Positions 13,299-30,477 of a stretch of 33,632 nucleotides of DNA are shown one piece after another. The position numbers were made by a program, and so were the translations under genes. How positions within the stretch are numbered: position 1 is the first letter of the stretch; each line of letters begins with the position of its first letter. Below the pieces are notes generated by a model. It did not search any database. It was not told the DNA's origin and saw only the letters and a program-made list of their open reading frames with translations. The stretch lies in the NCBI GenBank assembly GCA_009377575.1, contig WHTU01000029.1:1-33632 (forward strand). Reading direction: 5' to 3'. This DNA comes from Nitrososphaeraceae archaeon (GTDB taxonomy: Archaea; Thermoproteota; Nitrososphaeria; Nitrososphaerales; Nitrososphaeraceae).

Positions 13299-13475
13299 GT
13301 AACTGGAACCACCCGAGGTATTCATTAGCCCAGATAGTTAGAACTTCCTTTTCTTTTTTTAATAATATAGAATAGTCGGGTTCTTAAAGAATACTGTGTT
13401 TTTAAGGTCCTATTCCTGAATGGTTTGCCCGTCAAAAAAGTACTAAGAGATTCTAAGTAGTGGATAGCAGACTAA

Positions 13476-13532
13476 AGGTAGGTGACCTTTTGGTAGATGG
13501 CTGCCGACAGGTCGTTGTTAGATCACCTACCT
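13476..13532. other. long hairpin at the outer end of copy A
   Basis: aggtaggtga (13476-13485) pairs with tcacctacct (13523-13532) around a 37-nt loop. The corresponding hairpin in copy B is 30324-30378; arms differ but pairing is kept. Confidence 0.5.
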
Positions 13533-13683
13533 GATATTCTATGGCTATTGCGTAATATGCATATAACTGCCAACTTTATTTCCATTACGTTAATAGATCA
13601 TATAGAGCATATTGTCAAATGTTAAATATACTGCTTCTGTCATGAATCTTACCAACCCATATCTTAACCTTGACTATGGTCTT

Positions 13684-13740
13684 TAGTAGGTAGGTAAGTA
13701 TTCCAACCTACCTACTATCTTTTCGTTCATACACGAAAAG
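13684..13740. ncRNA. two tandem perfect hairpins, copy A
   Basis: Hairpin 1: tagtaggtaggt / acctacctacta, 12 bp with a 10-nt loop (13684-13717). Hairpin 2: cttttcgt / acgaaaag, 8 bp with a 6-nt loop (13719-13740). One base separates them. Both are identical in copy B. They could be a structured RNA, a double terminator or a DNA-level recombination or replication site; type is uncertain. Confidence 0.45.
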
Positions 13741-13878
13741 AAGTCAATCGGTACGCCCGTTTCCATTGCAATACTCACTATATTAGCTCTATCCCTTCCC
13801 TTCCCTCTTTTTCATCGGTGTAATATCCATATTGCTTCAACTAAAGATATTAATAAACTAGATTAGTACAGCTTGATT

Positions 13879-13977
13879 ATGATGCAATGTCCTAGATGTG
13901 GCGCAAGATGGGAAAGCCCTGATGGAGCGGACCAAAAGCAGTTTGTGATATGCAAGGAATGTGCTAGCAGAAAATAG
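13879..13977 (+). CDS. 32-aa zinc-ribbon microprotein, copy A
   Basis: Starts ATGATG and reads MMQCPRCGARWESPDG, then QFVICKECASRK. Two CxxC knuckles 18 residues apart form a complete zinc ribbon with almost nothing else. The frame is kept in copy B (29643-29744) with one replacement (Gly to Val), against wide divergence of the surrounding module, which supports coding. Too short for standard gene finders. Possible role: a nucleic-acid or protein binding zinc knuckle; unproven. Confidence 0.6.
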   Translation: MMQCPRCGARWESPDGADQKQFVICKECASRK

Positions 13978-14224
13978 CCTTAGTTCAACCCCAAGCCATG
14001 TCTAGAACAGGATTAGTGAAGCCTCATTGTTTGACAATTATTCTGAAGTAGATCATGATATTTATTTTATTACTCTTGATGTTTTCATACAAATGGGACT
14101 ATAACCGCATTCTACCCAGTGTAGAACCTTGTAGCAAGCAACCAGCCTAGGAAAATCTATTTTTATCAATAGCCCATTTTTTTTGTCTAGTTTTTGAGAG
14201 CTGCTGTTAGACAGCTCAAAAAGC

Positions 14225-15063
14225 TCAGGGCAGTGAAGATTTGTCTTCTCTTTTAACCTCTCTCAATACAACGTCGATGTACCTTCTTAATTCTTTTTCA
14301 TCCAATTCGACTTCTCTTTCTTTATATACATCTAGATTATCTTGGCTTTCAATAATTTCTGTTACTGTCTTTTGTATTTCCTTCTCCATTTCTGCGTGTC
14401 CTATTAAGTCTAACAAGTTTGATTTTATTGCATGTTTACGTATAGATTTACGCAAGCTATTATTTGTCGAAACAAGTGAGGCTGAGTTGTAGATTCCTAG
14501 CAACATTCAGTATCCTGCTATATTCAAAACAGTTAAGGTTGCAAGCCCAAATGGAGGATAGGGATTAACAATCTGGATTGCCGCCTGATTTGCAGCAAAA
14601 ATCAGGAATATGCCCAACCAGAAATAATCATGTATGTCTTGATGTTTTTTTCATAACCTACGACTTTGGATATGTTCCAGAATGCTATTCCAAAAAGCAG
14701 ACCTCCAATAGGTTTACTTAGCGATAGGAATGCCGACATTATAATAGAAACAGTTATCGGATCAATTTGCACATAGGAGATTAGTAACTGGCCTAAGAGA
14801 AACTGGTAAGAGTATGTAATTGAAAAATAAACAAGAGCTATAGATAGTATAATCCAAAACAGTATGGGATTGATTAGTTTCTCTCTATAGGATATCATCA
14901 AGATCACTATTGTAATCCAAATACCAAAAAAAGAAATAAAGGAAGAAACTATGTACATTGTATCTAATAATGCGTGGCTGCCTCCAGATATATCACCAGA
15001 AGATCCGACATATTCTCCAACACGATCTGGCCTATCTCCAATCTTTGCACTTGCACTTCTTTT
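14225..15063 (-). pseudogene. integral membrane protein broken by frameshifts and a stop
   Basis: One gene in several pieces. Codons from about 15063 (KIGDRPDRVGEYVGSSGDIS, GGSHALLDTM) lead without break into MYIVSSFISFFGIWITIVIL (14958) and further helices to KTYMIISGW. There a one-base shift near 14610 passes into LGIFLIFAANQAAIQIVNPY and LTVLNIAGY, then an in-frame TGA (14507-14509), then MLLGIYNSASLVSTNNSLRK and a charged C-terminal tail ending at 14225. The whole resembles thaumarchaeal proteins I recall with an extracellular DISGGSHA region, about six helices and a cytosolic helical tail. Its N-terminus is not recoverable. Confidence 0.65.
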
Positions 15064-15126
15064 TCACTTCCATCGGTGCCGTTTGCTATGTCTGTACCTT
15101 TCTTCTTACTGTAGAAATATAAAAAC

Positions 15127-15180
15127 TCAAGAGCTAAAACCCAAGAGCTAAAACGCAATAGCTAAAAGCCAAAGCTTAAA
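15127..15180. repeat. degenerate 14-nt tandem repeat
   Basis: Four imperfect copies of caagagctaaaac. They make up the first codons of the spurious minus frame 14964-15158. Confidence 0.5.
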
Positions 15181-15530
15181 TATTAGAGAGGAAAAAATTG
15201 GCAAACCTGCTCCTGAATTCCTTGGCCTGTATCGGATAGTACTTTCTAAATGTGTCTTTGTTTATTTTTTCCGTGACTCTTTATGATACCTATCAGTAGT
15301 ATTCATCCAAACCCATTCAATTCGTCATTGAGGTATTAGTCAAATTTTGTCGTGCTGTACGTTACAAAAGATATCTCAAAGAAGGTACTCTGATATAGAA
15401 TACTTAACTCTTTAAAATAAGAAAGATTGGACAATGACTGACGCTTAGTGTTAATCAAAAAGGAGGAGACCAAAAAAAGGCTTGACTAGACGTGTATATA
15501 GATTAGGAAGCCTCTAGAGAAATAGAAGAC
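15181..15530. other. intergenic, promoter of the gene at 15531
   Basis: No coding frame. A TATA-like gtatatagat at about 15492-15501 lies 30-39 nt before the ATG at 15531. Confidence 0.4.
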
Positions 15531-15896
15531 ATGAATAAAAAATATGAAAATATCAGAGTATCAGTCGTTCAAATAGGTTCAAAAAATGTTATGCTGTTTT
15601 CAGGAACATCTAATGAGGCAGAGATAGAGTATTCCTTTGATAACCAACTTCAGACTGAGTTGTTAGCATGGTTAGTTAAGAAACACATTCCTTTGTATCA
15701 AGGAAAAGAAGGTGAGACATCTTATGCCGGAAATGTAACTCCGATACATGGTGACATTTCATCAGAAGTAATGAAACTAGTTCAAAAATTGAGGAAGATT
15801 AAACCTTCTGGAAGTACAAATGAGAATATACGCAAGTTTATGCTTGATATGGCTGAAGAAGCAGAGAGACTTGAATATATATTCTGTACTTCATGA
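15531..15896 (+). CDS. hypothetical protein (possibly first part of a split gene)
   Basis: A 121-aa soluble protein, not recognised (IRVSVVQIGSKNVMLFSGTS, LLAWLVKKHIPLYQGKEGET). It ends in a helix, MLDMAEEAERLEYIFCTS. The next gene's frame overlaps and continues that helix naturally (LHDADFIKNRFGW) if one T near 15882 is removed. So this and the next entry may be a single protein of about 345 aa. As it stands the two are separate overlapping frames. Confidence 0.6.
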   Translation: MNKKYENIRVSVVQIGSKNVMLFSGTSNEAEIEYSFDNQLQTELLAWLVKKHIPLYQGKEGETSYAGNVTPIHGDISSEVMKLVQKLRKIKPSGSTNENIRKFMLDMAEEAERLEYIFCTS

Positions 15897-16572
15897 TGCT
15901 GATTTTATAAAAAATCGCTTCGGTTGGCTTAATGCTCTAATGAGTGACATTCAGACCCTAGTAGATGGTTTTGCAGCCTTTCGAAATGGCACCATTAGCT
16001 CCTCAAGCCGTCTCTCTCTTGGAGGAGGAAATTTGGCAATACCGATTCTTGTTTGCACAGGCCTAGAATTGGTCTCAGCACTTCGTACAGGTAAAACAAA
16101 GTATCTGTATGACAGGCAGTATGACCCCGAAGACAATGTAAAAGTATTCGTCACACTTTATTTTGATGATAATCTTAAAAAAATACCTAGACTTATTTGG
16201 GATGGAGTAAGAAATGGAGTTGACCATCTCTTTATTCCTAAATCAATGCAATGCAATCAAAATCGTATTCGTTTTAATTTTCTTATTGACAGCCCTTTGC
16301 AATCAGATGTAGAACATTCTCAAGGGATTATCAAGGTATCCATGGACGCTGCCAGATTTTTTAAAGCCTTTATAAAAGCTGTAGATAGATATAGGATAGA
16401 GTTAATAGAAAAAGAAGGACTTCAAAGGGATTTCATAAAAGCATGGAGCTCAATTGAGGAATTTAACCAAAATATAACTGCCAATGAAATAAAGGTGAAG
16501 GAGATAGATCTCCTATTGGAAGAGTTAAACCTAAATGGTCGTGTCGATCTTTTTGAGGGGATCGGTCAATGA
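15820..16572 (+). CDS. hypothetical protein (possibly second part of a split gene)
   Basis: 250 aa from ATG 15820; other starts are TTG 15871 and ATG 15940. The first 17 residues overlap the previous gene and look non-coding in this frame. From DADFIKNRFGWLNALMSDIQ the protein is well formed: a Gly/Ser loop (SSSSRLSLGGGNLAIPILVC), RTGKTKYLYDRQYDPEDNVK, and a helical charged C-terminus. RTGKTK lacks the context of a Walker A motif, so I do not call it a nucleotide-binding site. No membrane segment. Function unknown. Confidence 0.65.
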   Translation: MRIYASLCLIWLKKQRDLNIYSVLHDADFIKNRFGWLNALMSDIQTLVDGFAAFRNGTISSSSRLSLGGGNLAIPILVCTGLELVSALRTGKTKYLYDRQYDPEDNVKVFVTLYFDDNLKKIPRLIWDGVRNGVDHLFIPKSMQCNQNRIRFNFLIDSPLQSDVEHSQGIIKVSMDAARFFKAFIKAVDRYRIELIEKEGLQRDFIKAWSSIEEFNQNITANEIKVKEIDLLLEELNLNGRVDLFEGIGQ

Positions 16573-16739
16573 TTACAAGCCCATTTGTGAGCAAGCTGAG
16601 GTCTATTTCAGCAACGGCTCATCCAAGAAATACGTCGTTTATAGTTAGTTTTGATGGCGTCATTGGTTAAGATATCAAAAATAGATGCTTATTGATTCTC
16701 AATCCTTTTGAATAGGTTATCAAATGCCCTTCCTTATTT

Positions 16740-17501
16740 TTAGAATCCAATTATAGCTTTTGTAGATTTACATTGAAAAGAAGGATATTGATGATCTGAA
16801 TTATCAGGCAAAGATGAAACAGGTGAACAATGAGACATTCCATTTTCATCGTAGAGATTGTCGTTGTCTGTGATGCCTTCCTGAAATTCAGGTGGGCATT
16901 CATTGAGCATAGTCTTTTGCAGTTCCACCTTTGTGGTCTCCAATTCCTTGATAGACAATTGGAGCTCATCTTCTCTCTTATTTAATGCTACATTTCGGTC
17001 GCAGAACTGTTGGTAGATTTGAACTGAATTGCTTATGTCAGCTTTCAATGAATTTAATTCAGCTTTGTGTCTATCATATTCTAATCTAACCCTGGGAAGA
17101 TATCCGTTTGCTATTTTAAGTAGCTCTGCTACTTCACCCTCACCCATTCCCGAATTTTGAACTAGTTTGACAAAATTCACATATGGCCAAGGATTATCCT
17201 TGACCTTAAGGTAAACCTTAGTGAATTCGGTACATCCCAAAAGCATGAAATATTCTTGATGATAACGTATTGCTTCTTCAGATTTGAGGCCTAGTGTAAT
17301 AGCCACCTGTAATGGGGTCTTTTGTTGAGAGTAGAGTTCAAAGACTCTAGACGATATCGAAGTATTCTGGTCCAATCCTGCTTTATTCAAAATTGCCTTG
17401 ATCGTGTTTGGAGACACCCCGGCCTCTTTTGTAATCTCTCTGTAGGTTTTCCCTTTTTCAGCTAACGCCAAGACAAGAGCTACTTTTTGCTTTCTATCCA
17501 T
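16740..17501 (-). CDS. helix-turn-helix protein with coiled coil
   Basis: 253 aa. Residues 1-42 form an HTH of the resolvase/homeodomain-like kind (VALVLALAEKGKTYREITKE, then AGVSPNTIKAILNKAG). Residues 50-80 resemble a second HTH-like unit (SQQKTPLQVAITLGLKSEEA). Residues 130-200 are coiled coil (LEYDRHKAELNSLKADI, KREDELQLSIKELETTKVEL). The layout matches a DNA-binding family I recall as expanded in soil thaumarchaea and their elements. The ATG at 17501 is preceded by aggagc, and a perfect 22-bp palindrome lies 42 nt further upstream, consistent with autoregulation. Confidence 0.75.
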   Translation of the reverse strand: MDRKQKVALVLALAEKGKTYREITKEAGVSPNTIKAILNKAGLDQNTSISSRVFELYSQQKTPLQVAITLGLKSEEAIRYHQEYFMLLGCTEFTKVYLKVKDNPWPYVNFVKLVQNSGMGEGEVAELLKIANGYLPRVRLEYDRHKAELNSLKADISNSVQIYQQFCDRNVALNKREDELQLSIKELETTKVELQKTMLNECPPEFQEGITDNDNLYDENGMSHCSPVSSLPDNSDHQYPSFQCKSTKAIIGF

Positions 17502-17542
17502 TGCTCCTGTCTTATTTGTCTCTAGAACGATTTAGCTTTTAC

Positions 17543-17564
17543 TATCATATGTTATCATATGATA
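17543..17564. promoter_or_regulatory. 22-bp palindromic operator candidate
   Basis: TATCATATG (17543-17551), 4-nt spacer, CATATGATA (17556-17564), perfect. It sits between the HTH gene and the pseudogene at 17606, where the HTH promoter should be. Confidence 0.5.
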
Positions 17565-17605
17565 TTGACATGCTATTTCTTGTAATTTTCTGCATCAGAT
17601 TGGTA

Positions 17606-17986
17606 TCAGAATGAGCTCAGCAACCTCTCACCTATTGCTATTGCATCCTATGTTGTTCTGACTTGCTGAGCTTGTTGCAATAGATCTGTTGCTTGTGCAG
17701 TTGTTAACAATCATCTGGTTGCAAGAGTATTAACTGAGATACTAAATCTATCCATTATTGCACACGAAATAAAGTCATTTGATGGGTTACTATCACTAAC
17801 AAATATCAATGCTACTCTTAGCTGAGTTGTGAGGGAGGTCTCTACACGAAGGTTTACATTATCAAGATCCCCTACCGTTTGAATTAGATTCTGAAATAAC
17901 TCTAGAACTCGTCATCATGATCGTAATACCTTATCTAATCTGTTGCTCGTTAGAAAAGAACTTTTGAGTAAGATTGATTGAACCAT
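17606..17986 (-). pseudogene. unrecognised gene with four in-frame stops
   Basis: From ATG 17986 a 126-codon frame reads to a final TGA at 17606-17608 with internal TGA TGA (codons 24-25), TGA (92) and TAG (113), but no frame change. Between stops it is protein-like: MVQSILLKSSFLTSNRLDKV, LFQNLIQTVGDLDNVNLRVE, LRVALIFVSDSNPSNDFISC, TTAQATDLLQQAQQVRTT, DAIAIGERLLSSF. Decay by point mutation only, unlike the frameshifted neighbours. Function unknown. Confidence 0.45.
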
Positions 17987-18021
17987 GCAAATAACGCCGC
18001 TTTTTAACCCAAAGAACTCTT

Positions 18022-18639
18022 ATGCGTTGTTCTGTATCCAAGCAGATGAGAAGAGCCAATAGAAACAATCAGGCTTATACTGGAAAAACTTGGTTATTAG
18101 CTATTGCAGGCAGTGCAGTCCTTTTGCTGTCGTCGGTGTTAAGCAATCCGATTATACAATCAGCATATGGCCAACCTTCACTCCCCCCACAAGATCAGGA
18201 AAGACTTCTAGAAGACGCTGGAGCAGGGATTGGTCATCTTGAATTCGATAAAAGACCCAAGTTAGCAGAGTTAAGATTCGAGGGGTCCATAATTGCCGAG
18301 AGAAAAGCACCTCCTGCTATCACAGGTGACAACGTGTATGTGGCATGGTGGACTAACAAGACAGGTAACGATGAAGTGTTATTCAGGGCGTCTACAGATG
18401 GTGGTACTACGTTTGGAGATAATATTAATTTGAGTAATACAACTGATGCAGATTCCACAAGAGCGGAGATAGACTCGGATGCAGATAGTGTGGTAGTTAC
18501 ATGGTGGGAAACAAACCAGACAGATGATATACCGGTTATGAGAGTAAGTAATGATAATGGAGCCACATTTGGGCCTGTCCTGACACTGGCTACTAACGGA
18601 ACTTTAGGAGAAGCATCGGACGGAGAAGGAGATGAATAG
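18022..18639 (+). CDS. secreted Asp-box (BNR) repeat protein
   Basis: 205 aa; ATG 18022, or ATG 18046 (MRRANRNN). A long signal peptide (LLAIAGSAVLLLSSVLSNPI) ends near AYGQ. The mature part has two Asp-box turns S-x-D-x-G-x-T-F: RASTDGGTTFGDNINLS and RVSNDNGATFGPVLTLA, each with the preceding VYVAWW / VVVTWW strand typical of sialidase-like beta-propellers. Only about two blades are present, far short of the six or seven of an enzyme, so it is more likely a short surface adhesin or a truncated propeller. A hairpin terminator follows. Confidence 0.75.
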   Translation: MRCSVSKQMRRANRNNQAYTGKTWLLAIAGSAVLLLSSVLSNPIIQSAYGQPSLPPQDQERLLEDAGAGIGHLEFDKRPKLAELRFEGSIIAERKAPPAITGDNVYVAWWTNKTGNDEVLFRASTDGGTTFGDNINLSNTTDADSTRAEIDSDADSVVVTWWETNQTDDIPVMRVSNDNGATFGPVLTLATNGTLGEASDGEGDE

Positions 18640-18649
18640 GACTAACAGC

Positions 18650-18672
18650 GAGTAGATTTTTTCTACTCTTTC
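18650..18672 (+). terminator. terminator of the Asp-box gene
   Basis: gagtaga / tctactc (18650-18656, 18662-18668) around a TTTTT loop, followed by ttt. Confidence 0.55.
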
Positions 18673-18745
18673 AATCCAGGTTGATCACTGCGAAGGACTG
18701 CAGTAGAGAAAGGAGAAGGGACTCTATATAAGGAGGCAACAAGTC

Positions 18746-19033
18746 ATGGCGACCTCTTTGACTCATTCAGACTATCGTTGCAGTTTTGGCATTGACTAAC
18801 TGCAACTTATATCTATTAATGAATGCTTTGATGGACCCCACTTCTACGAGTGCTTACAACATGGATCAGATAGATACTGGACAGATCGCTGATGGTGCAA
18901 TTCAACCTCAGGTGATAGAAAGGGTTCTGGTAATGATGCCCTTAGTGTTATGAATGTCCTTAACCCAAGTACTAAGCAAGTATTAGACGAGAGTAGTGGT
19001 GTGTCGCCATCTATAGATTCATTTCATCATTGA
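18746..19033 (+). pseudogene. decayed secreted protein
   Basis: A TATA box (ctatataag, 18723-18731) and aaggagg precede ATG 18746. That frame stops after 17 codons. A second frame gives a signal-like TIVAVLALTNCNLYLLMNAL and TGQIADGAIQPQ; a third gives GDRKGSGNDALSVMNVLNPS and TKQVLDESSGVSPSID to TGA 19031. Two frameshifts in about 290 nt. Family not identified. Confidence 0.45.
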
Positions 19034-19467
19034 TCTTGTCAAGCAATATAGAATCCTTATTATTCTTAGGTTTGCTTTAATTTTATTTCTTTATTTGATA
19101 ATTGATAGTATTTCTTCGAAGCTCTGATGAGGATTGGGCTGCTGATTTAGAACACGAAGATAGGAATACAGCCAAGAGTTGTCAAGTGTGTTCTATCCAA
19201 GAGGATATTAAGAGAATATCTAGTCCTGGCTGGGATGGTCAACCTGCTCCTGTTGGCTGTTCTTGTCAACGGAAGGTAAGATATTAATGACAGTTGGAAT
19301 TGGCTGATGCTTCAGTTAGGGACCGGCAGGCACCAGCACTTGTTACCTTATACCGTGCCAGCCCCGCCATTCCATTACTGTTGTTGGGCTGCCACTCCAA
19401 ATTATCCAATGTATACATCACTATTATCTATTACAGAACCCTATTACCATTATCCCATTATAAGTAG
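19034..19467. other. unclear stretch, possible gene remains
   Basis: Holds two short frames: 19102-19287, whose EDWAADLEHEDRNTAKSC and CQVCSIQEDIKRI are somewhat protein-like with a CxxC, and 19307-19519, which is not. Neither can be called a gene. Confidence 0.3.
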
Positions 19468-20064
19468 CGTGTTACGCCGTCCCTGTGCTTCTTCAGAAAT
19501 GATAGTTATGACAGTTTAGGAAGTTGGAGATGCTATGGTTGTATAGATAGAGGATTAACAAAAATAGACTGTGATGAAATCAAAGAAGGAAATGGTAGCT
19601 TAGATCATGCATCATTACAAGAAGAAAATAGAAGGAATTGTTATGATGATGGATTTGAGGACGGTAAAAATAGTAATTCTTTCAATAAAGATAGAGACAG
19701 TGCATGTTCTGAATATGGTGATCCATATGAAGATGGATTCAGTGCAGGGTGTCAGTCAGTAGAAGGAAATACAAATGATAGCTGTGAATTAACAATTGAA
19801 AGACATGAAATATACTGTCCTGATAATCCAGATGATCCAGCTTGCACAGACTTCTTACATGATGTCAGTAATAAAAAACCACTTCCTCCTAAGAACGGTT
19901 CAGTTTGTGACCAGGAGCCTTATCAACCTGGCTGCCCTCAAATTGTTAATCCTGAAAGATATTGTCTCGTTACTGATGATCCAGTCTTTTGTAAGACCAT
20001 AGGTGATATCTGCGATCCAAATGGTTTTGTAAAGCCTAAAGATGCATATTGCAGATCTGATTAA
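19468..20064 (+). pseudogene. start-less copy of the Cys-rich secreted family
   Basis: A 198-codon open frame with no start and no signal peptide. It opens after TAG 19465. From about 19540 it parallels the gene at 21928: CIDRGLTKIDCDEIKEGNGS, SLQEENRRNCYDDGFEDGKN, YEDGFSAGCQSVEGNTN. It then goes on into a different Cys-rich C-terminus (PDNPDDPACTDFLHDV, YQPGCPQIVNPERYCLVTDD, GDICDPNGFVKPKDAYC). The 5' end with the signal peptide has been lost. Fourteen Cys in the open part indicate an exported, disulphide-rich protein originally. Confidence 0.65.
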
Positions 20065-20179
20065 AAATCTCTTTCTAATTTCTATGTGTGGCTGTTATTA
20101 ATGTTATTAATATAGGCAGCTGTACTAGCCCTGCTGTTGTTCTTGGTGTTGTTATATTCATTGTAGCATTAGTTTACAT

Positions 20180-20188
20180 AATATATAA
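20180..20188 (+). promoter_or_regulatory. TATA box for the gene at 20209
   Basis: aatatataa centred about 25 nt before ATG 20209: leaderless start. Confidence 0.55.
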
Positions 20189-20208
20189 CATATACACATC
20201 TATACATC

Positions 20209-21923: not shown

Positions 21924-21927
21924 AGAA

Positions 21928-22722
21928 ATGAAAAGCAAACTAATTTTTCTTACAGCAATTATTCCAATCTTAATGCTGACAATAATAGTACCGAATGTGT
22001 ACGCAAGCGGTCCTAGGGGAGACTCTCCTGACGGTTCTACAAGAGAAGGTGCAAATTGTTGGGTAGAAGGATATGATGCAGGCTTTGCTCAGAAATATGA
22101 TAAAGATAGAGCTGATCAATGTAAAAATGCGGAGGATGATGAATATAATGCATCTTGGAAATACGGATGTATTGACTCAGGATTAACAAAAATTGACTGT
22201 GACCAAATAAAAGATAATCCAGAGCATATAGAACATGAATCATTGCAAGAAGAAAATAGAAGGAACTGTTATGATGATGGATATGAGGACGGACGTAATA
22301 ACCCATTTGATCGTGAAAGAAATAACGGATGTAATGACTATCAAGACATGTATTACAAAGGGTTCATAGCTGGTTGTGAGTCGGCTGGAAATACTAAAGA
22401 AATGTGTTCCTCTAGTGGTCATAATAATAACAGCGGAGATAATAGTAATGAACCTGATCGTCTTAAAGTAACAGCCACGCTGAATGTTCCATCTTCTTGG
22501 TGTGGAAGAGAATTTCAGGTTACCTTGAGAACAGAAGGTGTGTCTTACACAGAATACAAGGATGGCTGTACTGGAGACGTAGAATTTGCACCAGCCCCAA
22601 TTGATATGAATGAAGAGTTCACAGTTTGCGCACAAGCCTCAAATGGTGCGGTCAGTGGCTGCCAATCTGGTGTAAATGGCCCTGAATCAGAATCAGAGCG
22701 GATTACAATCGACGTAGGCTAA
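21928..22722 (+). CDS. secreted protein with Cys/Gly-Tyr-Asp repeats
   Basis: 264 aa from ATG 21928 (a TTG at 21814 would add 38 residues encoded by a remnant of another gene). Signal peptide KLIFLTAIIPILMLTIIVPN, cleavage near VYA-SG. The mature part repeats a unit of the type W/Y-x-x-G-Y-x-D/A-G (WVEGYDAGFAQKYD, NCYDDGYEDGRNNPFDRE, MYYKGFIAGCESAGNTKE) with spaced Cys. A C-terminal beta-rich part (TATLNVPSSWCGREFQVTLR) carries more Cys. Family unnamed to me; exported and disulphide-bonded. Fragments of paralogues lie at 19468, 21595 and 22800, and a short relative at 13020. Confidence 0.75.
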   Translation: MKSKLIFLTAIIPILMLTIIVPNVYASGPRGDSPDGSTREGANCWVEGYDAGFAQKYDKDRADQCKNAEDDEYNASWKYGCIDSGLTKIDCDQIKDNPEHIEHESLQEENRRNCYDDGYEDGRNNPFDRERNNGCNDYQDMYYKGFIAGCESAGNTKEMCSSSGHNNNSGDNSNEPDRLKVTATLNVPSSWCGREFQVTLRTEGVSYTEYKDGCTGDVEFAPAPIDMNEEFTVCAQASNGAVSGCQSGVNGPESESERITIDVG

Positions 22723-22799
22723 ATGTTATTGGCTTTATTTGATAGATCCTGTTTTATCCCTTCACTGAGGCCAGAATGAAATTGTGGTGATGATCACAA

Positions 22800-22949
22800 T
22801 TTGATGAAGATCGGCACGGAAGATGTGAAAATATCAGAAATAGAAATATGTACCATAAGACAAAGATAAAAGCTAATCAACACTATCATGCATTCATAGT
22901 TGGTTGTGGAGATGTTGAAGGAAATGCTAAAGCTGCGAATGTTTCATAG
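22800..22949 (+). pseudogene. fragment of the Cys-rich secreted family
   Basis: 49 codons without a start: FDEDRHGRCENI, then YHAFIVGCGDVEGNAK. It matches FDRERNNGCNDY and YYKGFIAGCESAGNTK of the upstream gene in order, with changed spacing. Confidence 0.45.
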
Positions 22950-23088
22950 ATGATGGAAGACTACCAGTAGAGAGTTTAAGAAAAGCATATAATTAAAAAA
23001 TATATAGTTTGCTATGATATGTTTATTTTGGTACGTCGAAACGTGCTACGCCTTATGCCATGCATGCCAGCTTCATACAGCCCACTGT

Positions 23089-23463
23089 TTAAAATTTTGA
23101 GGATCTAGGATCTATATTTAGAAATTCCTTAAGACTTTGCATATGTTCCTGTGTTGGAGGATATGGTTTTCGCCATCTGGGAAGTATTGATGTATTTTGG
23201 ATTACGTGATAGACAACTTTACTATGATCATTTAGATTATCCCAATCGTCTTCAAGCGAATATGCTAATCTCTTTTCATCTTCTTCGGTGAAGTCATTCG
23301 CATATGCGACGTCTTCCGACACGATACCATTCAATCGTATCAATTCTGCAATATCAGTTTGATCGATTCGAAATGGATCGTAATAACCGTCTTCAACCAA
23401 TTCATCAAGATACCATTTTCTTTCACGTTCCTCATCATTTAAGGATGCGTCATCCTCATCCAT
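23089..23463 (-). CDS. acidic hypothetical protein
   Basis: 124 aa, strongly acidic, soluble (ERERKWYLDELVEDGYYDPF, ANDFTEEDEKRLAYSLEDDW, LPRWRKPYPPTQEHMQSLKE). Not recognised. It lies 254 nt downstream of the ATPase gene on the same strand, inside the element's likely core. Acidic small proteins near element ATPases can be DNA mimics or partner proteins, but nothing here proves that. Confidence 0.6.
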   Translation of the reverse strand: MDEDDASLNDEERERKWYLDELVEDGYYDPFRIDQTDIAELIRLNGIVSEDVAYANDFTEEDEKRLAYSLEDDWDNLNDHSKVVYHVIQNTSILPRWRKPYPPTQEHMQSLKEFLNIDPRSSKF

Positions 23464-23717
23464 CAGTTCATCAATGTTTGAAATCCATCCCTTGTCAGAT
23501 TTTCCTATTGTCGTTGTCTAACTTCGCCTCTTTCAATTCTTGGTCTAAACACAAACCGTAGTAATTGGTAAGTTTGAACTTAATACACGGATTAAAAACA
23601 ACTTGAAGAGGTACCTAACTTCTTCCCTGCATTTACGGTCTATATTTATGAATGAATTCTGGAGAAGTAGCGACTCCACTTGATGTATATATGGTTCATG
23701 TACAAATTTAGTTGCCG

Positions 23718-25535
23718 TTAAGACCCCTCCTGTTCAAAATTTATCCCAGCATTTCTTGGATTTTCCCAATACATTCCCTGAGGCTCTAGATTATGTTTTT
23801 CCAAATCTGTAGGCCCAGGATAACCTGTCAAACCCTTATGGCATCTAACAACATGTTCTTCATAATGATCCTTATCGCTAAACCCTCCAATAATACAATA
23901 ATAGCACTTAGGTGGATACTCTACATGACTAGGGTGAAGGGGTGAAAGCGGTGAAGGCATTATTTGACTTTGCCTATCATATTTAACTATACTTTTAATA
24001 TCATTATTTTGTGAATTGTAGCTAATGCTTTCACTGCTTTCACTGCCTTCACCTTTCACCTTTTCCTTATCATAGTTTAGAACATCCTCATACATCATGC
24101 CAATCTTATCCAGTTTCTCTTTATCAAAAATCAAGACATTGCCTGACTTCTTATGCTTCCTTTCCGCACCAAGGCCTTCTAAGATCTTTGTTATCGTACT
24201 TCGATAGATGGTATCATAATCATGTGATTGGAATTCATTAGGTTTATCTGGGTTGTATAAACCGACCACATTTTTCATAATTTCTTCCCAAATGTCTGCG
24301 ACTGATATTGTAGTCCCGTGTGTAATAATCATGTTCTTGATTATGTCATACAACACTGGTTCGATAGAAGTATTGTTTCTCCTAATGTTCTTTTTCGCTA
24401 AGAATGATTTAATTGCCTTATCGATCCTGTTATATGATCTTGTATCATGGAAAAATTGCAATAACGGCTTGCAAAGTTCTTTGTCTCTTCCATTAAGCCC
24501 GACATCTAAATCAAAAATTGGATCATCAAAATGTACTAATCTGAATATTAGAAGTAACTTTCTAAGGTTTCGGAGACTCTCATGCAACTTTTCCAATTTC
24601 CCATTCCTTCTAGATGCTGGATGCAACACCTCCTTGATATCATATCTAGGGCAACCTTTAATCGCCCTAATCATAAATGATCTATCAATAACACCCTTTG
24701 CAAAACTGGGTCTCATTGGATCTTCAGCTATCCTCATCTTGAAGCAGTAGCTAAAGAAAAATTCCTGTTTTTCAGTATTCTTATTGATTTTGGAAACCTT
24801 TCCCAGTATTGTGTATCCTTCCTTAAGAATAGACATCATGTCCTTATCGGTGTGAATTCTGTCTGCCTCATCTGCTATGATAATACATTGTCCAGGTTCT
24901 ATCTTACCCAAAATTCTATAGAGACTAGGTGCAGAAGGGTCAGTCATTCTAACAGCTCTATATGCGATTCCCTCAAAGACGTGACCTATGGTACTCTTAC
25001 CAATACCATTACCTGTCCCTGATATGTCATAGTAATGTGTTGTGGGGAATAAGTCTTGGAAGTATGTCCAGAATATATCAGCTGAGATTAGAATCCGAAT
25101 TTCTTCGTCCTGGTCAATATATAGAGATACAGTTTCGAATATTTTTTGGAATAGAATTTCCTTGTTTACTCCCTCCAGTACTATCTGTTGGAATTTCTTG
25201 AGTTCTTCGTATGTACTAAATTCTATTGGTTCATAAGGATATTCTTCGATGCTTGGCGGCCTCAAAATCCTATCTTGTTCTTCAATATTTGGAACTGCTT
25301 GAATCTGACCGTCTTGATATTTTATGAAAACCGGAGCGCCGTTAAGTAAAATTGCTTCGTGAAGTGTACCTCTAAACCTAGAAGAGTACTTGAATGTCAT
25401 ATAGTCGTATTTTTGATTTTGATCTTTCTTGGTGGCCTTACCTTTACCGTTTCCTAACCTCTTTTCAGTATCTTCTAAGTCTTTATCAAATGCTTCCTCT
25501 AATGCTTTGTACGTGTCTTCCTCTATTGAAGTCAA
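23718..25535 (-). CDS. element P-loop ATPase (helicase-like) with C-terminal zinc finger
   Basis: 605 aa. Walker A GTGNGIGKST at about residues 193-202, Walker B CIIIADEADR at about 238-247; the residues between (AYRAVRMTDPSAPSLYRILG) and after (SYCFKMRIAEDPMRPSFAKG, then VIDRSFMIRAIKG) follow the order of replicative or DUF3631/D5-like helicase domains, with an arginine-finger candidate in VIDRSF. Residues 400-480 are winged-helix-like. The C-terminus has a C2H2-type finger (CYYC, then HVVRCH). Likely the replication or DNA-processing ATPase of the element. The start TTG overlaps the stop of the 57-aa gene upstream (TTGA), indicating coupled translation. Confidence 0.75.
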   Translation of the reverse strand: MTSIEEDTYKALEEAFDKDLEDTEKRLGNGKGKATKKDQNQKYDYMTFKYSSRFRGTLHEAILLNGAPVFIKYQDGQIQAVPNIEEQDRILRPPSIEEYPYEPIEFSTYEELKKFQQIVLEGVNKEILFQKIFETVSLYIDQDEEIRILISADIFWTYFQDLFPTTHYYDISGTGNGIGKSTIGHVFEGIAYRAVRMTDPSAPSLYRILGKIEPGQCIIIADEADRIHTDKDMMSILKEGYTILGKVSKINKNTEKQEFFFSYCFKMRIAEDPMRPSFAKGVIDRSFMIRAIKGCPRYDIKEVLHPASRRNGKLEKLHESLRNLRKLLLIFRLVHFDDPIFDLDVGLNGRDKELCKPLLQFFHDTRSYNRIDKAIKSFLAKKNIRRNNTSIEPVLYDIIKNMIITHGTTISVADIWEEIMKNVVGLYNPDKPNEFQSHDYDTIYRSTITKILEGLGAERKHKKSGNVLIFDKEKLDKIGMMYEDVLNYDKEKVKGEGSESSESISYNSQNNDIKSIVKYDRQSQIMPSPLSPLHPSHVEYPPKCYYCIIGGFSDKDHYEEHVVRCHKGLTGYPGPTDLEKHNLEPQGMYWENPRNAGINFEQEGS

Positions 25536-25705
25536 TTCTTTTTGGTTACCTCTATTTCCGGCACTAGTTTATCTAATATTGAAATCAGTTGTTCTAAAAC
25601 TTGGTTAAAGAATTCCTGATCAACCATTGAGAATTTCAATTGAGTTCCTTCACTCTTTGCAAAATGTTTAATTTGATCACTGCAGAATAAATCATAAGAG
25701 GTCAT
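25532..25705 (-). CDS. 57-aa microprotein translationally coupled to the ATPase
   Basis: ATG 25705 to TGA 25532, below usual length cut-offs. Sequence MTSYDLFCSDQIKHFAKSEG, FSMVDQEFFNQVLEQLISIL, then DKLVPEIEVTKKN: amphipathic helices, no membrane segment. Its TGA overlaps the ATPase's TTG start by two bases, which explains the non-ATG start of the ATPase. The arrangement suggests a loader or regulator of the ATPase, by position only. Confidence 0.6.
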   Translation of the reverse strand: MTSYDLFCSDQIKHFAKSEGTQLKFSMVDQEFFNQVLEQLISILDKLVPEIEVTKKN

Positions 25706-25736
25706 AATGTGACTCCGTAATTGTGACCAAACTAAC

Positions 25737-25790
25737 GGATGATGCTGGCTTTCCCGCTGGCATTGGAACCAACATCATCCTTTTTTTTTT
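25737..25790 (+). terminator. strong hairpin with ten-T tail
   Basis: ggatgatgctgg (25737-25748) pairs with ccaacatcatcc (25769-25780), 11 of 12 bp, 20-nt loop, then T10 (25781-25790). It lies between the ATPase operon and the Cys/His gene. As an intrinsic-type terminator it works on the plus strand, where no gene is seen upstream, so an unannotated plus-strand or antisense transcript is possible. Confidence 0.55.
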
Positions 25791-25834
25791 CGTGACATGT
25801 GTATTTCTTGCTATTGAATTCCATTATGTCATTG

Positions 25835-26116
25835 CTATCCATCTTTTGTCAACTCCTTGATTTCGGCAGCCTGATAGGCTGGAGTATCAAAGTGGCATTG
25901 GTGATGACAAATGATTCGCAAGATATCTCCCCTGATACTGTCTATGTATAACCCGGTACATTGGTCGCATGCTGCCAGACAATAATTTATGTCACGTGTA
26001 ATTGTATTTCTATATCCTGAAGAACTTTTTACATTACTTTCAGCATCAGAATTTAATTCTAATTCTTTAATGCCTCCAGTTCCATTTACTGCATGCGTAT
26101 CAGTTTGAGATTTCAT
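25835..26116 (-). CDS. Cys/His-rich hypothetical protein
   Basis: 93 aa. The first 40 residues are polar and likely disordered. The second half has YCLAACDQCTGLYIDSIRGD and RIICHHQCHFDTPAY, giving Cys/His pairs C-x3-C-x2-C and C-H-H-x-C-H, a probable zinc site. A strong Shine-Dalgarno GGAGGTGA (26127-26134) lies inside the end of the RHH gene just upstream, so the two are one transcript. Function unknown, likely nucleic-acid or protein binding. Confidence 0.65.
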   Translation of the reverse strand: MKSQTDTHAVNGTGGIKELELNSDAESNVKSSSGYRNTITRDINYCLAACDQCTGLYIDSIRGDILRIICHHQCHFDTPAYQAAEIKELTKDG

Positions 26117-26126
26117 TGCTTTCTAG

Positions 26127-26258
26127 TCACCTCCTCTCCTGAGAACCCAGTAGTCTTTGTATAACTGAATCGAAGCTGTCTGACAGGGTTCCTAATTTCT
26201 GAAGAGCTGTGTACGTATCAATTGAGATTCTAATCGTTCTTGTGTTATTCGAACACAT
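26127..26258 (-). CDS. 43-aa ribbon-helix-helix regulator
   Basis: ATG 26258 to TGA 26127, too short for usual gene calling. TRTIRISIDTYTALQKLGTL followed by SDSFDSVIQRLLG is the RHH pattern: a short strand T-x-x-I-R-I-S, then helices with L-x-x-L-G and S-F-D-x-V-I-x-x-L-L, as in CopG/VapB-like antitoxins and plasmid repressors. It is divergent from the gene at 26296, with an inverted repeat between them, and leads the operon into the Cys/His protein. Likely an autoregulator of the element; an antitoxin role is less likely as no toxin is seen beside it. Confidence 0.7.
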   Translation of the reverse strand: MCSNNTRTIRISIDTYTALQKLGTLSDSFDSVIQRLLGSQERR

Positions 26259-26265
26259 GATACAC

Positions 26266-26303
26266 TTTATATACACATGGTAACATCATATAGTAGTGTT
26301 ACC
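26266..26303. promoter_or_regulatory. divergent promoter with operator-like inverted repeat
   Basis: GGTAACA (26279-26285) and TGTTACC (26297-26303) form a perfect inverted repeat with 11-nt spacer across the start of the rightward gene. tttatatac (26266-26274) is spaced 26 nt from GTG 26296. A TATA-like sequence for the leftward RHH gene falls in the spacer. TGTGTT/AACACA repeats at 26240-26257. RHH proteins bind such sites. Confidence 0.55.
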
Positions 26304-27003
26304 TAAAAATGAAGGTGAGAAATCCAGGAATATAACTGAGGGTTACGGTCCTAATCGTTCAATTGTTAAATTCATGATTGCTTTGTTGCAATACAAAGAA
26401 GATGTAAAATTAGTGAATGAATTGGAAGAGCATAAAAGATATCTTGACAAGGAAAAAGTTGACTTACAACACAAGGAGAAAATTAAATTGGAAGAGCATA
26501 AAAGATATCTTGACAAGGAAAAAGTTGGCCTACTGAACAACTGCATCTTTCCTTCGATGGCAAATATTGTGTTCTTTTTTAGATATATCTCCAGATATCC
26601 GGAGCTCAAAGAGGTCTTCGATAATGATATTAAAGATCTGTTAGGAGTACGACGGGAAAACCCTAATAAAGATTATTATGGGTATATTTTCTCTGATTTA
26701 CTACGGTCGATTATAATGCCTGAATTGGGCTATTACAATGAAGAAAAATTGCATGACAAAGATTTTCGGTTGCGATTGACCCAGATTCTGCAGGAGACAG
26801 TCATAGCTAAAACTGGTATATATCTCACCGATATGTTTACGAATGAAAGTATACAAGTTGTTCAAAATGATTTTAACAGGGCGGAGGCTTGGGTAGAAGC
26901 GGTAGCAAATAGTGCAGGTCAGAATGCGGTAGACAACAAACCTCCCAACAGACCTATAAGATTTGGCATTACTCAGATAAGGGAAGATGATGAATTGATA
27001 TAA
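26296..27003 (+). CDS. hypothetical protein with duplicated charged helix
   Basis: 235 aa; the GTG start at 26296 is supported by the TATA box 26 nt upstream (leaderless). Residues 40-78 are a charged helix containing LEEHKRYLDKEKV twice, 22 residues apart. The rest is a helical domain (NCIFPSMANIVFFFRYISRY, YPELKEVFDNDIKDLLG, RLRLTQILQETVIAKTGIYL) that is not recognised. No signal peptide. It is transcribed away from the RHH gene and toward the integrase, so is likely under RHH control. Unknown function. Confidence 0.65.
   Translation: MLPKNEGEKSRNITEGYGPNRSIVKFMIALLQYKEDVKLVNELEEHKRYLDKEKVDLQHKEKIKLEEHKRYLDKEKVGLLNNCIFPSMANIVFFFRYISRYPELKEVFDNDIKDLLGVRRENPNKDYYGYIFSDLLRSIIMPELGYYNEEKLHDKDFRLRLTQILQETVIAKTGIYLTDMFTNESIQVVQNDFNRAEAWVEAVANSAGQNAVDNKPPNRPIRFGITQIREDDELI
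26420..26527 (+). repeat. 42-nt exact internal duplication
   Basis: 26420-26461 and 26486-26527 are identical, offset 66 nt (22 codons), within the gene at 26296. Identity at synonymous positions implies a recent event. Confidence 0.8.
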
Positions 27004-27277
27004 GAGCGATGTGTAGACGTAAACATGGCTAACCTATAATAGAAATCGATCCGAAATTCTCACAAAATTGGAAGGTTATCTCTTGTTGAATTTCTGTTGG
27101 TTATTAGCCAAGGTTAAAAATAGTCCATTTTATCATTGAAAAATTATCAACCTTTTCTGATGGTGGCTTAAGTCGTTTACCTGTTTAATTAGCGATCACA
27201 TAAGGTATACCCTTAATAATTGAGCCGGTCCCATTGGATGTAATTTCCAGTCTGACCTCTTGTAGTAATATCTCTTT

Positions 27278-28698
27278 TTATGAGGCCTGTTTTAATATTC
27301 CAGAAGAAAACATTGATTGAGCCACATTCATAAGCTCTTGTTGATCTTTTATTTTAGAAAGACCTGTTATGAGTTTCTCCATCATAGTTTGCATCACATC
27401 AACTCTTTCTTCCATAACTGCCAGTTTATCCTCTTTCTTCTTTTGTTCTTCAATCGTTTCACTATACGCATCGTATGTTAAAACCATCCTACATCTAGCA
27501 CAAAACTTTGAGTCTGGCCTGTTGGGCTCATCACAATTAGGACACTGTTTAGGCTTTAATGCATCCGTCTGTTGTTTCTCTTTTGGTATTATCCCGTACT
27601 CTTCAAGTATAGATTCAGAACTTTCATTACCAAAGTAATGCAAATATTTTAGATGCATTTGAGAATTCCTAGACCATCCGCTGTGTTGCCTCAATATATG
27701 TTCCTTCAGGTATTTACTTTTCTCAGTCAATGCACTATGTCTTCTAATGTATGGGTTCCAAGGTTTGTTTAGCAATTCTTTGATGTGTTGCTTATCATCT
27801 CCTGGAATTTTGGTTTCTAATAGGTTGGGAAAGAGTTTTGTCTTGTAATTTTTATAAATCTGCCGTAAGCCATTTGGACCTAACTTACTTAGTCGACCTC
27901 TATCGCTTAGATTGGGAATTAGGTAAGCGTTAGAATTGCCCCTCTGTGGATGTGCATCTAGCCAATCTTTTATGTATGGTATGCTGCTAATCAACGGGAT
28001 ATGTCTAGAGCCAGTTTTCCCATTGACCAGACATTCAGCATACTGTTTTGCATCAGCTGTACTCTTGAACACTCATCCTTGATTTGTAAATTCAAAATTT
28101 CGTGTGGCCTACAGCTAAGGTCCCTACTGATCGTATGATAACAACGATCCCTTTTGCTAGGACAATATTTTAGAAAAAGCAAGTCATCTTCAGTGCTCCA
28201 AAGGTCAGAAGGTTTGTAAATTGAAGTTTCCTTTCTTTTATATTTTGGAATATTTTCAACAACATTTGGCTTTGGTCTCTTTTTTGGTTCGATTTCTGAG
28301 TAGTACAACCATTTAAAAAACTTGATTATTATTATCCTATGGAGTGAGTGCGTCCCTATCCATTTATGCATTGGATCTTGAGTTTCAGCCTTTTTAAGGG
28401 AATCTAAGTAAGATAACACGTCCCCTCTAGCAACTTTTCCAATGTCTTCCCTCTTGCAGTATTTTGCTAAATCTACGATAGCATAAATATTCATCCTTAT
28501 GTAATTTATTGAAGCATTGTTCTCTCTTTTCAGATCATTAATGACATAATCGATTATGTAAGTCGAATTTTGTTTAGATAATCCCAAGAGTATTTTATGG
28601 AAGTACGGATTTAATCCTTCGACTGCTGACTGAAGCTTAGTTTCGAATTTGACGCATAATGATGTCTGATTCTTAATCTCCGGGTTCGCTACCGTCAC
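27278..28698 (-). pseudogene. tyrosine recombinase/integrase with zinc ribbon, frameshifted
   Basis: About 472 aa in two frames. Part one (28698-28072, GTG start, TATA-like gtttatcta about 26 nt upstream) has the SAM-like core-binding domain (YLDSLKKAET, IIIIKFFKWLYYSEIEPKKR) and the first catalytic Arg in DLSCRPHEILNLQIKD. A one-base deletion at about 28072 joins it to VFKSTADAKQ, with Lys in VNGKTGSRHIPL, the second Arg box YIRRHSALTEKS (His of H-x-x-R replaced), HSGWSRNSQMHLKY and the Tyr in KYLHYFGNESSES. Then a zinc ribbon (CPNCDEPN, FCARC) and a coiled coil. Catalysis of integration at the adjacent att is expected of the intact enzyme. Pseudogene unless recoded or a sequence error. Confidence 0.8.
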
Positions 28699-28741
28699 AT
28701 TGAAATGGCAAGGGTAAAAGATAGATAAACATATCTAGCAC

Positions 28742-28768
28742 ATTATTCTATCTTTAGATAATACTCTG
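28742..28768. repeat. putative attR (27-nt direct repeat)
   Basis: Identical to 5441-5467. It covers the last codons (EYYLKIE) and stop of the gene at 28743-28955, so insertion here leaves that gene whole. 44 nt from the integrase start. Confidence 0.7.
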
Positions 28769-28955
28769 CACAAACGTTCAAAGCTTGCACCATACTCGCA
28801 TCAGTTACTCTCAACATCTCGTCAGTGCACCATTCTATCAGTTTAGCTTGTTGCTGTGTAACACGGATAGTGGTTGCGAGAAGCATATTCGAACCCAAGA
28901 GGCTCATGACGACAGTTAGAAAAAGTATGGAGTAGATTATCTTTATCAATGCCAT
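28743..28955 (-). CDS. small exported protein; integration target
   Basis: 70 aa from ATG 28955 (longer frames upstream to 29150 look non-coding). N-terminal hydrophobic segment MALIKIIYSILFLTVVMSLL, then RVTQQQAKLIEWCTDEMLRV and MVQALNVCAEYYLKIE with two Cys. Likely secreted or anchored by its N-terminus; function unknown. Its 3' end is exactly the attR repeat, and the other copy at 5441 marks the element's far end, so this is the gene the element inserted into without harming it. Confidence 0.6.
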   Translation of the reverse strand: MALIKIIYSILFLTVVMSLLGSNMLLATTIRVTQQQAKLIEWCTDEMLRVTDASMVQALNVCAEYYLKIE

Positions 28956-29633
28956 CCAACAAAGTCTGATACATGAAGTGTTATTAATTCCCTCCGGATC
29001 CCAACCGCCTTGAGGAGATTGTAACAACGTTCTGGAAATGAAGAAACTATGAGAAGATTTCTGCGAGCAGTTATTGAATCCCCTTAGTACATGATTTGAC
29101 TTCATCATGGAAGTTAGGCTAACTCGGTGTCTGATGCTTGCCCATTTCATGGTAATAGGTGACAGTCAGAATAAGGGCAAATGATATTGCATTTGGAGAC
29201 TCCTACAAGAGACATTAAACGTTCTAATGCCAGAACGTTTTATTCAACTAATCCCATTGGCAAAATATATAGTGTTGAATAATAATTAAGGATAGCTGAA
29301 TACGACAATTTACTAATGTGTTTCTTATCCAGACTTTATTAATATCTCTATTGTTTATTGTTTGTTGCTACGTAGAATAATTCAGTGGATTCCCACTGTT
29401 ATCTCTGCTACTTTACTACTTTCGCCATATCAACTGGGGGGAAGATATGATTTGAGTCCATTTTGAAATCAAATAAAGTCGAAAGTAAGATGATTGAATA
29501 ATCATAATATAATTGATAAAATGTCTTATTAGATATTTCAGCAGCTATGTCCAACCGTATCCTCTTCTCGACTAAATCAGCATATGATGATACGTTGGTA
29601 GCATTAGACTGGCTTTATGTTGTATGAGACAAA
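28956..29633. other. intergenic, one hairpin
   Basis: No coding frame. Contains a perfect 9-bp hairpin (29217-29240) and AT-rich sequence. Confidence 0.4.
29217..29240. terminator. 9-bp perfect hairpin, 6-nt loop
   Basis: aaacgttct / agaacgttt around aatgcc. Confidence 0.5.
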
Positions 29634-29642
29634 AGAACTAGG

Positions 29643-29744
29643 CTATTTTCTGCTAGCACATTCCTTGCATATCACAAACTGCTTTTGGTCCGCTACATCA
29701 GGGCTTTCCCATCTTGCGCCACATCTAGGACATTGCATCATCAT
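29643..29744 (-). CDS. 33-aa zinc-ribbon microprotein, copy B
   Basis: Starts with three ATG codons and reads QCPRCGARWESPDVAD, then QFVICKECASRK. Same protein as 13879-13977 except for one extra Met and Gly to Val. Two CxxC knuckles. Identity of nearly all bases, including silent positions, means recent duplication, gene conversion or strong constraint. Confidence 0.6.
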   Translation of the reverse strand: MMMQCPRCGARWESPDVADQKQFVICKECASRK

Positions 29745-29987
29745 CAAGCTGTACTAATTCTAGTTTATTAATGTCTTTAGCTGAAGCTAATCCTTCAATA
29801 TGGATACTACACCAATGAAAAAGAAGGAAAGGAAGGGATAGGGCTAATCCCAACCTTTCACAATATGGAAGATGTCAGTACGGGAGTAATAGAACAACGC
29901 ATATTTACATCTGGTTATCTACAAAAATTTACTGCGTTCACAAAACTTTATCAGCTGCACAATGGAAAAGGGGTCGTAACAACAGCA

Positions 29988-30098
29988 ATGCGTAAGAGGA
30001 AATGTAATTCATGTGGTGGTACCGGCATAACTGTTTTCGACTTTAACAATGATGCAATATATAGTAAGTATTGCAATGGAAACGGGCGTACCGATTGA
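29988..30098 (+). CDS. 36-aa protein with DnaJ-type CxxCxGxG motif
   Basis: From ATG 29988: MRKRKCNSCGGTGITVFDFN, then SKYCNGNGRTD. CNSCGGTG is a complete CxxCxGxG zinc half-site; the second half-site would be CKYCNGNG but the first Cys is Ser (agt for tgt). The longer frame from 29865 looks non-coding ahead of this ATG. In copy A only the last codons survive. Either a degenerating zinc microprotein or a site with one altered ligand. Confidence 0.45.
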   Translation: MRKRKCNSCGGTGITVFDFNNDAIYSKYCNGNGRTD

Positions 30099-30101
30099 CT
30101 T

Positions 30102-30158
30102 CTTTTCGTGTATGAACGAAAAGATAGTAGGTAGGTTGGAATACTTACCTACCTACTA
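30102..30158. ncRNA. two tandem perfect hairpins, copy B
   Basis: cttttcgt/acgaaaag (30102-30123) and tagtaggtaggt/acctacctacta (30125-30158); reverse complement of 13684-13740 without a change. Confidence 0.45.
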
Positions 30159-30323
30159 AAGACCATAGTCAAGGTTAAGATATGGGTTGGTAATATTCAT
30201 AACAGAAGCAGAATATTTAACATTTGACAATAGGCTCTATATGATCTATGAACGCAATGGAATTAAATCAATGGCTTGTTCTTTATGATCACATAACGCA
30301 ATAGACAACAGAAATCTCTAACT

Positions 30324-30378
30324 GGGTGGGTGACCTAACACTTGTCGGCATCCCTGACTATCAATAGGTCACCTGCCT
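30324..30378. other. long hairpin at the outer end of copy B
   Basis: ggtgaccta (30329-30337) pairs with taggtcacc (30365-30373), extended outward by G-C and G-T pairs; 27-nt loop. Counterpart of 13476-13532. Confidence 0.5.
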
Positions 30379-30477
30379 TTAGTGCATATCATTGACTCCC
30401 TACGACTGCTATTACGCTGCATGCTACTAACCAGTAACTTCTAAAACATAGAAGGATGGCTTTGTCATGCGTGAGAA

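Follow-up and report, generated by a model that had tools for sequence, protein, structure and literature searches.

Two inverted copies of one composite module in the 33,632-nt stretch of archaeal DNA analysed here (the window), one inside an integrated element and the other just beyond it, point to a new family of structured intergenic repeats. The reading that we prefer, at a rough probability of 0.45, is that the module was duplicated long ago and its two bodies became alike again recently, probably through gene conversion, and that it is led by a new genus-specific structured element (H) probably acting as an RNA of the opposite strand. Structured intergenic repeats are already well described in bacteria, whose genomes harbour stem-loop repeat families such as REP and REPIN. 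The literature that we searched on archaeal and thaumarchaeal repeats, structured RNAs and small RNAs yielded no such family in these archaea. Expansion of genomes in this group has been ascribed to gene duplication, according to the part of PMC7603488 available to us.

Module A (13471-13986, + strand) lies inside the integrated element and module B (29635-30383, - strand) outside it. That the two are inverted copies, as a preliminary description of this DNA had proposed, was confirmed by BLAST and by alignment, and the pair is real. A repeat search recovered inverted arms with 96% (13575-13783/30059-30267) and 98% identity (13862-13980/29640-29758). The identical centre described earlier is an exact run of 127 nt (13649-13775 on the + strand, partner 30067-30193 on the - strand), and the divergence of the outer part is likewise borne out: the left ~110 nt (13471-13580) align over 104 columns with 15 mismatches, a further 24 columns being gaps, whereas 13581-13783 and 13862-13986 together have 10 mismatches in 328 columns (Fisher p = 8e-5). 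When the 46 differences between A and B were placed at random, a 127-nt run was reached in 12 of 200000 placements, so that the uneven identity, earlier pictured as conserved islands, has statistical support, and the copies do not show the uniform identity of a plain recent duplication. B is ~210 nt longer than A, owing to a stretch (29849-30058, no strand assigned) that BLAST and alignment find missing from A, a detail which the earlier account had not spelled out.

Each module begins with ~140 nt of H, that is a hairpin and a conserved box, followed by a body that holds two more hairpins and two small zinc-motif ORFs. Both body hairpins lie in the core on the + strand, stem-loop 1 (13684-13717) being a near-palindrome, TAGTAGGTAGGT..ACCTACCTACTA, and stem-loop 2 (13719-13740) pairing CTTTTCG with CGAAAAG. 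A 77-aa ORF with DnaJ-like zinc motifs (29865-30098, + strand; Pfam match under the cut-off, E=0.088) is whole in B and truncated in A, and only its last part falls in the shared stretch. The 32-aa zinc-ribbon-like ORF (13879-13977, + strand, in A; 29643-29741, - strand, in B) differs between the copies at a single position, which alters the amino acid, and shows no silent change; against the LysW-type zinc ribbon PF21344 it scores 18.2 bits, the Pfam cut-off being 27, and its relative in G003 is 86% identical. Apart from such zinc-ribbon relatives, no body was found outside A and B. An origin of the core as phage or plasmid sequence was dropped, as searches of viral contigs (exact pattern), phages (query module A) and plasmids (query module B) all gave no match. 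The window contains no tRNA.

The H parts of A and B are mutual nearest neighbours among the 42 copies of H that we located (73% identity, compared with an all-pair median of 57%), and both therefore belong to the old duplication. A and B would descend from one composite module, in which H preceded an ancestral body with two stem-loops, the tail of the opposite-strand DnaJ-like ORF and the zinc-ribbon-like ORF; B would be the fuller copy and A would have lost the ~210 nt. The left H part would have aged to its present 73% identity, and the right-hand body would by contrast have been homogenised recently, most likely via gene conversion between the inverted copies, as judged from one copy pair in one short-read assembly. 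Alternatively, selection alone might preserve the core and the zinc ribbon against the drift that affects the remainder of both modules, and indeed two strong stem-loops and one ORF fall within the conserved stretches. We regard this as on the whole unlikely, since the identical sequence extends over the end of an ORF which A has in truncated form, since H, despite its constraint at other sites, has diverged more than any other part of the pair, and since the zinc-ribbon ORF lacks silent changes between A and B, yet is only 86% identical in G003, so that near identity there is not simply strong constraint. Of the two causes that the preliminary description had offered for the conserved core, function or gene conversion, conversion is thus the better account of the body, whereas function gains support for another part than the one meant, because the outer stretch, though diverged, is part of an element that occurs genus-wide with its structure conserved. 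The pair is also a natural example of sequence being exchanged unevenly between chromosome and integrated element.

H consists of a hairpin, a ~65-nt spacer and the conserved box. Covariance models (R1, R2) place it at 13472-13611 (+ strand) in A and at 30231-30382 (- strand) in B, and a third copy (11863-12001, - strand; R2 E=1.4e-10) sits in the integrated element as well, in the orientation opposite to that of the H of A. At E<=0.005 it occupies 42 dispersed places in all five genomes of this genus (6-13 copies per genome), 15 of them outside the model's training set, and none in 34 sampled genomes of other genera, where R2 finds no match even at E<=0.1; weak R1 matches occur in 15 of 65 other-genus genomes (best E=0.007). 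A first exact genome-wide pattern for H found nothing; a second matched TH5896, TH526 and one bacterial sequence, the last of which we take as a chance match, its fit to the model being partial (E=0.011). One locus (L067), which matched the box without the hairpin, was discarded. H is thus a genus-restricted family of dispersed intergenic elements, and the covariance model together with the 42 places makes it a searchable target. The many dispersed copies that had been named as the mark of a MITE were therefore found for the first 140 nt of the module but not for the 127-nt core. No Rfam family matches at gathering score in the window, up to E=1 at 13400-14000 or up to E=0.1 in four other loci, and H was set aside as a known RNA within the loci searched.

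The alignments of H comprised eight sequences without locus L060 (A1), nine with L060 added (A2), 35 rows (A3) and 27 rows, the last eight of A3 being left out (A4). In alignments fitted to the model's own structure, cells with a double change numbered 40 against 11.5 in shuffled data (35 rows), 25 against 9.1 (27 rows) and 39 against 13.7 (42 rows), the observed value being reached in none of 500 shuffles each time. Two double-change measures were weaker on the larger sets, pair positions with a double change being matched in 17/500 and 11/500 shuffles. H thus keeps its hairpin via compensatory changes, and its shared structure is backed by covariation, as in stem-loop intergenic repeat families. 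It also resists drift at orthologous sites, being more alike than both flanks in ten of 14 orthologous pairs and not so in the other four; for example, G000:C314 and G002:C4 share an island of 150 nt with 80% identity amid unaligned stretches. H therefore looks functionally conserved.

Several features differ between the strands. Mismatches are A.C in 41 and G.U in nine cases (42 against 18 on 42 rows), a comparison uncorrected for shared ancestry; RNAalifold gives -12.2 for the opposite strand and -4.1 for the strand as written; and AAA stands at the hairpin foot in 25 of the 42 copies, the background being 13%. Single-sequence folding energies show no strand difference (p=0.27). H would probably work as an RNA read off the opposite strand, box first, with the hairpin and a short U run as its 3' end, by analogy with small RNAs or terminator-type 3' ends. 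Conservation of the spacer is low, an unusual feature among small RNAs whose target is conserved. The more far-reaching proposal is that H represents a new genus-specific class of small structured RNAs, each equipped with a start box and a terminator-like hairpin, which would have spread over the chromosome and into an integrated element, and that recombination at the hairpins would reshuffle the gene neighbourhoods between copies; this we hold to be quite improbable. A double-stranded DNA site, in which two inverted protein-binding motifs (AGGYRGGYGACC) and a third conserved box would be recognised, appears unlikely: both arms do keep one motif in inverted order around loops of variable length, and a protein binding both arms could preserve their likeness without RNA, but the excess of A.C over G.U mismatches is a strand asymmetry not expected from paired DNA sites. 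No standard TATA element was evident at the box of H, and a sigma-70 and terminator scan around B returned no more than shuffles did. As a promoter of the next gene H was rejected, its downstream neighbours being split 14 to 14 in orientation. Upstream neighbours are mostly co-oriented (22/31), and a 3'-end bias over both sides of H is not significant (36/59, p=0.12).

The copies of H lie mostly between ORFs and cluster in both orientations, and the genes next to them recur in different combinations. A cassette or integron reading of these clusters was set aside because the joints around H did not look exact. H might instead be a non-autonomous mobile element (MITE- or REP-like), with A and B as insertions extended by a zinc-ribbon passenger, which we consider rather unlikely. 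Its dispersed, multi-copy clusters and variable neighbourhoods would fit, as would the two copies carried by the integrated element itself and the fact that homology between A and B, and between L118 and L117, starts at about the hairpin foot. However, neither a target-site duplication nor terminal inverted repeats across the unit are visible in the flanks of 27 copies, H is better preserved than the adjoining sequence at several orthologous sites, and the one locus tested for an empty site yielded no clean one. Mobilisation of the IS200/REP type was dropped, and H also lacks the REP-associated Y1 transposase (RAYT) of REP elements: the search for a source transposon, which covered the Y1 family only, found PF01797 in none of the five genus genomes (incomplete drafts), while the control was positive in five of 14 genomes. 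Compared with prokaryotic MITEs, as far as the available part of PMC10969869 describes them, H is similarly short, non-coding, intergenic, stem-loop forming and multi-copy (42 places at E<=0.005), but its 140-nt unit has no terminal repeats at two ends, the inverted arms forming a hairpin at one end and an unpaired box standing at the other, and neither a target-site duplication nor, in the Y1 family searched, a source transposon was found. With the bacterial SLS families, in the accessible portion of PMC2267715, it shares dispersed intergenic positions, a common secondary structure and a possible action as RNA; unlike them it belongs to an archaeal genus and is low in copy number (6-13 per genome at E<=0.005). 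From bacterial stem-loop repeat families in general it differs by the separate conserved box beside its hairpin and by the lack of a Y1 transposase among the matches found.

The integrated element (5441-28768, 23.3 kb) is real. It is bracketed by a 27-nt direct repeat, attL (5441-5467, + strand) and attR (28742-28768, + strand), the latter at the 3' end of a small protein gene (28743-29150, - strand), and in two relatives both flanks are joined at the att site without the element; the placing of A inside and B outside thus holds. Its integrase (27278-28698, - strand) is split over two overlapping frames (27991-28698 and 27278-28072), the first of which matches the phrog_1 integrase (E=1.1e-4). 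Recombination between A and B, which had been said to invert about 16 kb, is permitted by their geometry, but nothing shows it: the att repeats are direct and the flanks stand in native order against the two empty sites, and therefore no fixed inversion is seen. An inversion switch with A and B as arms, flipping ~16 kb with integrase and attR and so blocking or permitting excision, would accord with inverted copies 16 kb apart that share an identical 127-nt core, and with G003, where the zinc ribbon has on one side a relative of the hydrolase that stands left of A and on the other a B-like right flank, much like the expected recombinant joint. We judge it very unlikely, given the native order of att repeats and flanks, and as the flank match in G003 is short (26 nt) and the 3.1 kb that separate hydrolase from module are missing there as well. 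The main text of PMC6563490, which describes cryptic integrated elements of Thaumarchaeota, contains none of the words hairpin, stem-loop and non-coding. Like those elements, the present one combines an integrase with att direct repeats at the 3' end of a protein gene and an empty site in relatives, spans 23 kb and carries mostly unknown genes; unlike them, it has its integrase split over two frames.

Contig G000:C221, whose first 33.6 kb make up the window, is 38.4 kb long and comes from a draft genome of 3.9 Mb and 380 contigs. Genome growth in Nitrososphaerales has been attributed to gene duplication in one study (PMC7603488). The inverted duplication read from its sequence in the preliminary description was recovered by repeat search and alignment, with copy A at 13471-13986 (+) and copy B at 29635-30383 (-). 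Its uneven identity was likewise borne out: the copies differ at 15 of 104 columns in the left part, at none over the 127-nt core (13649-13775), at 6 of 71 positions in 13791-13861 and at few in the zinc-ribbon end. A 127-nt run was reached in 12 of 200,000 random placements, and the left-right contrast is marked (Fisher p = 8e-5). On the most economical reading, a composite module attached to a novel family of structured intergenic elements would have been duplicated long ago into A and B, and a recent exchange between the two copies would have involved only the body, everything beyond the first ~140 nt (H: hairpin, spacer and conserved box).

Two stem-loops lie in the body, together with the tail of an ORF and a zinc-ribbon-like ORF of 32 aa, for which no Pfam family scored above its cut-off. 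B is longer than A by about 210 nt, and A is probably a deleted form, because a 77-aa ORF with DnaJ-like motifs crosses the junction of the extra stretch in B while its tail alone is left in A; this ORF falls below the cut-off for PF00684 (E = 0.088) and its relatives elsewhere are weak. Beyond A and B, only the zinc-ribbon has clear relatives: one at 86% identity in G003:C499 and, in G000:C348, a 71-nt fragment at 90% (G000 is the source genome, G001 to G004 the other four of its genus). G003:C224 has one weak match to a stretch of the core (29 nt, E = 0.004), beside a tRNA gene. In G003:C499 the zinc-ribbon adjoins a relative of window 10026-10739, a gene that we take to be hydrolase-like, and the right flank is B-like; the zinc-ribbon gene has therefore been at a recombination joint before.

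The placement of A inside and B outside an integrated element was confirmed by a 27-nt direct repeat (5441-5467 and 28742-28768) and by empty sites in G001:C38 and G004:C121, where a relative of the repeat is present and the left and right flanks of the window are joined without the element. The 3' end of a small protein gene falls within the right repeat; in a published survey, 14 of 68 thaumarchaeal integrated elements with defined sites have theirs in the 3' portion of a protein-coding gene (PMC6563490). Since the repeats are direct and the flanks in native order, the assembly shows no fixed inversion between A and B. Homology of the window to the two empty-site contigs ends at 29060 and 29199, and B with its adjoining aquaporin-arsenic genes is therefore not at the same place in either relative. 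These genes (30478-32446, -) comprise an aquaporin and two others, presumably arsenate-reductase-like and methyltransferase-like; the set recurs at several loci of the genus, three of them in G003, and resembles a moving arsenic cassette. Neither B nor H was found at the other aquaporin loci of the genus in the stretches examined, some of which end at a contig end. Within the element, the integrase (27278-28698, -) is divided between two overlapping frames and may be inactive, carry an assembly-error frameshift or be produced via frameshifting. A direct repeat of 80% identity (19534-19664 and 22162-22292) lies within two small predicted secreted-protein genes.

Searching with the module gave a short match of its left part in G000:C122, where a hairpin precedes the common box. 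The box pattern had ten matches in 4 of 70 family genomes, every one of the source genus, and a hairpin lies upstream in nine. A covariance model of H built from nine copies (R1) matched 15, 7, 9, 7 and 11 times in G000 to G004 at E<=1; a second, from 27 copies (R2), found 42 places at E<=0.005 in all five genomes (13, 7, 8, 6 and 8), 15 of them outside its training set; the 34 genomes sampled from other genera yielded no match at E<=0.1. In the literature on thaumarchaeal and archaeal intergenic repeats, mobile elements, MITEs and structured or small RNAs, we found no paper on an H-like family.

H looks constrained, judging by sequence comparison. Its stem retains 87-89% standard pairs, and in alignments of 35, 27 and 42 rows, themselves fitted to the model, the covariation score was reached by none of 500 shuffles each, with shifted partners scoring far worse. 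Pair positions with double changes are less decisive (reached by 17 of 500 shuffles with 27 rows and 11 of 500 with 42). Of 14 orthologous pairs, which are not independent, 10 show greater similarity in H than in either 120-nt flank, against a random baseline of 49%; two further pairs were left out because their loci are not orthologous. Between G000:C314 and G002:C4, H forms a 150-nt island at 80% with unaligned stretches on either side.

Stem mismatches favour the strand opposite to that on which H is written: A.C exceeds G.U by 41 to 9 in 27 rows with one extra column included, by 25 to 8 without it and by 42 to 18 in 42 rows, and A.C becomes G.U when the other strand is read. RNAalifold also favours that strand (-12.2 vs -4.1 kcal/mol), while single-sequence folding energies do not differ (p = 0.27). 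AAA stands at the hairpin foot in 25 of 42 copies (background 13%). On the other strand the box comes first, followed by the hairpin and a short U run, an arrangement that hints at a small RNA or at a 3' end of the terminator type.

H copies in clusters occur in both direct and inverted orientation. The covariance model placed a third H of the window at 11863-12001 (-); at 11863-13611, inside the integrated element, two H in inverted orientation enclose three small ORFs, resembling a small composite unit. At four loci (L099, L100, L104 and L116) H lies at the 3' end of one same small gene (ending HSFNEET), with differing genes downstream. A TTTTGCGCGCAAA-type palindrome occurs near several copies, upstream or downstream, at L099 (G000:C266), L117 (G004:C24), L118 (G001:C83) and L105 (G003:C533).
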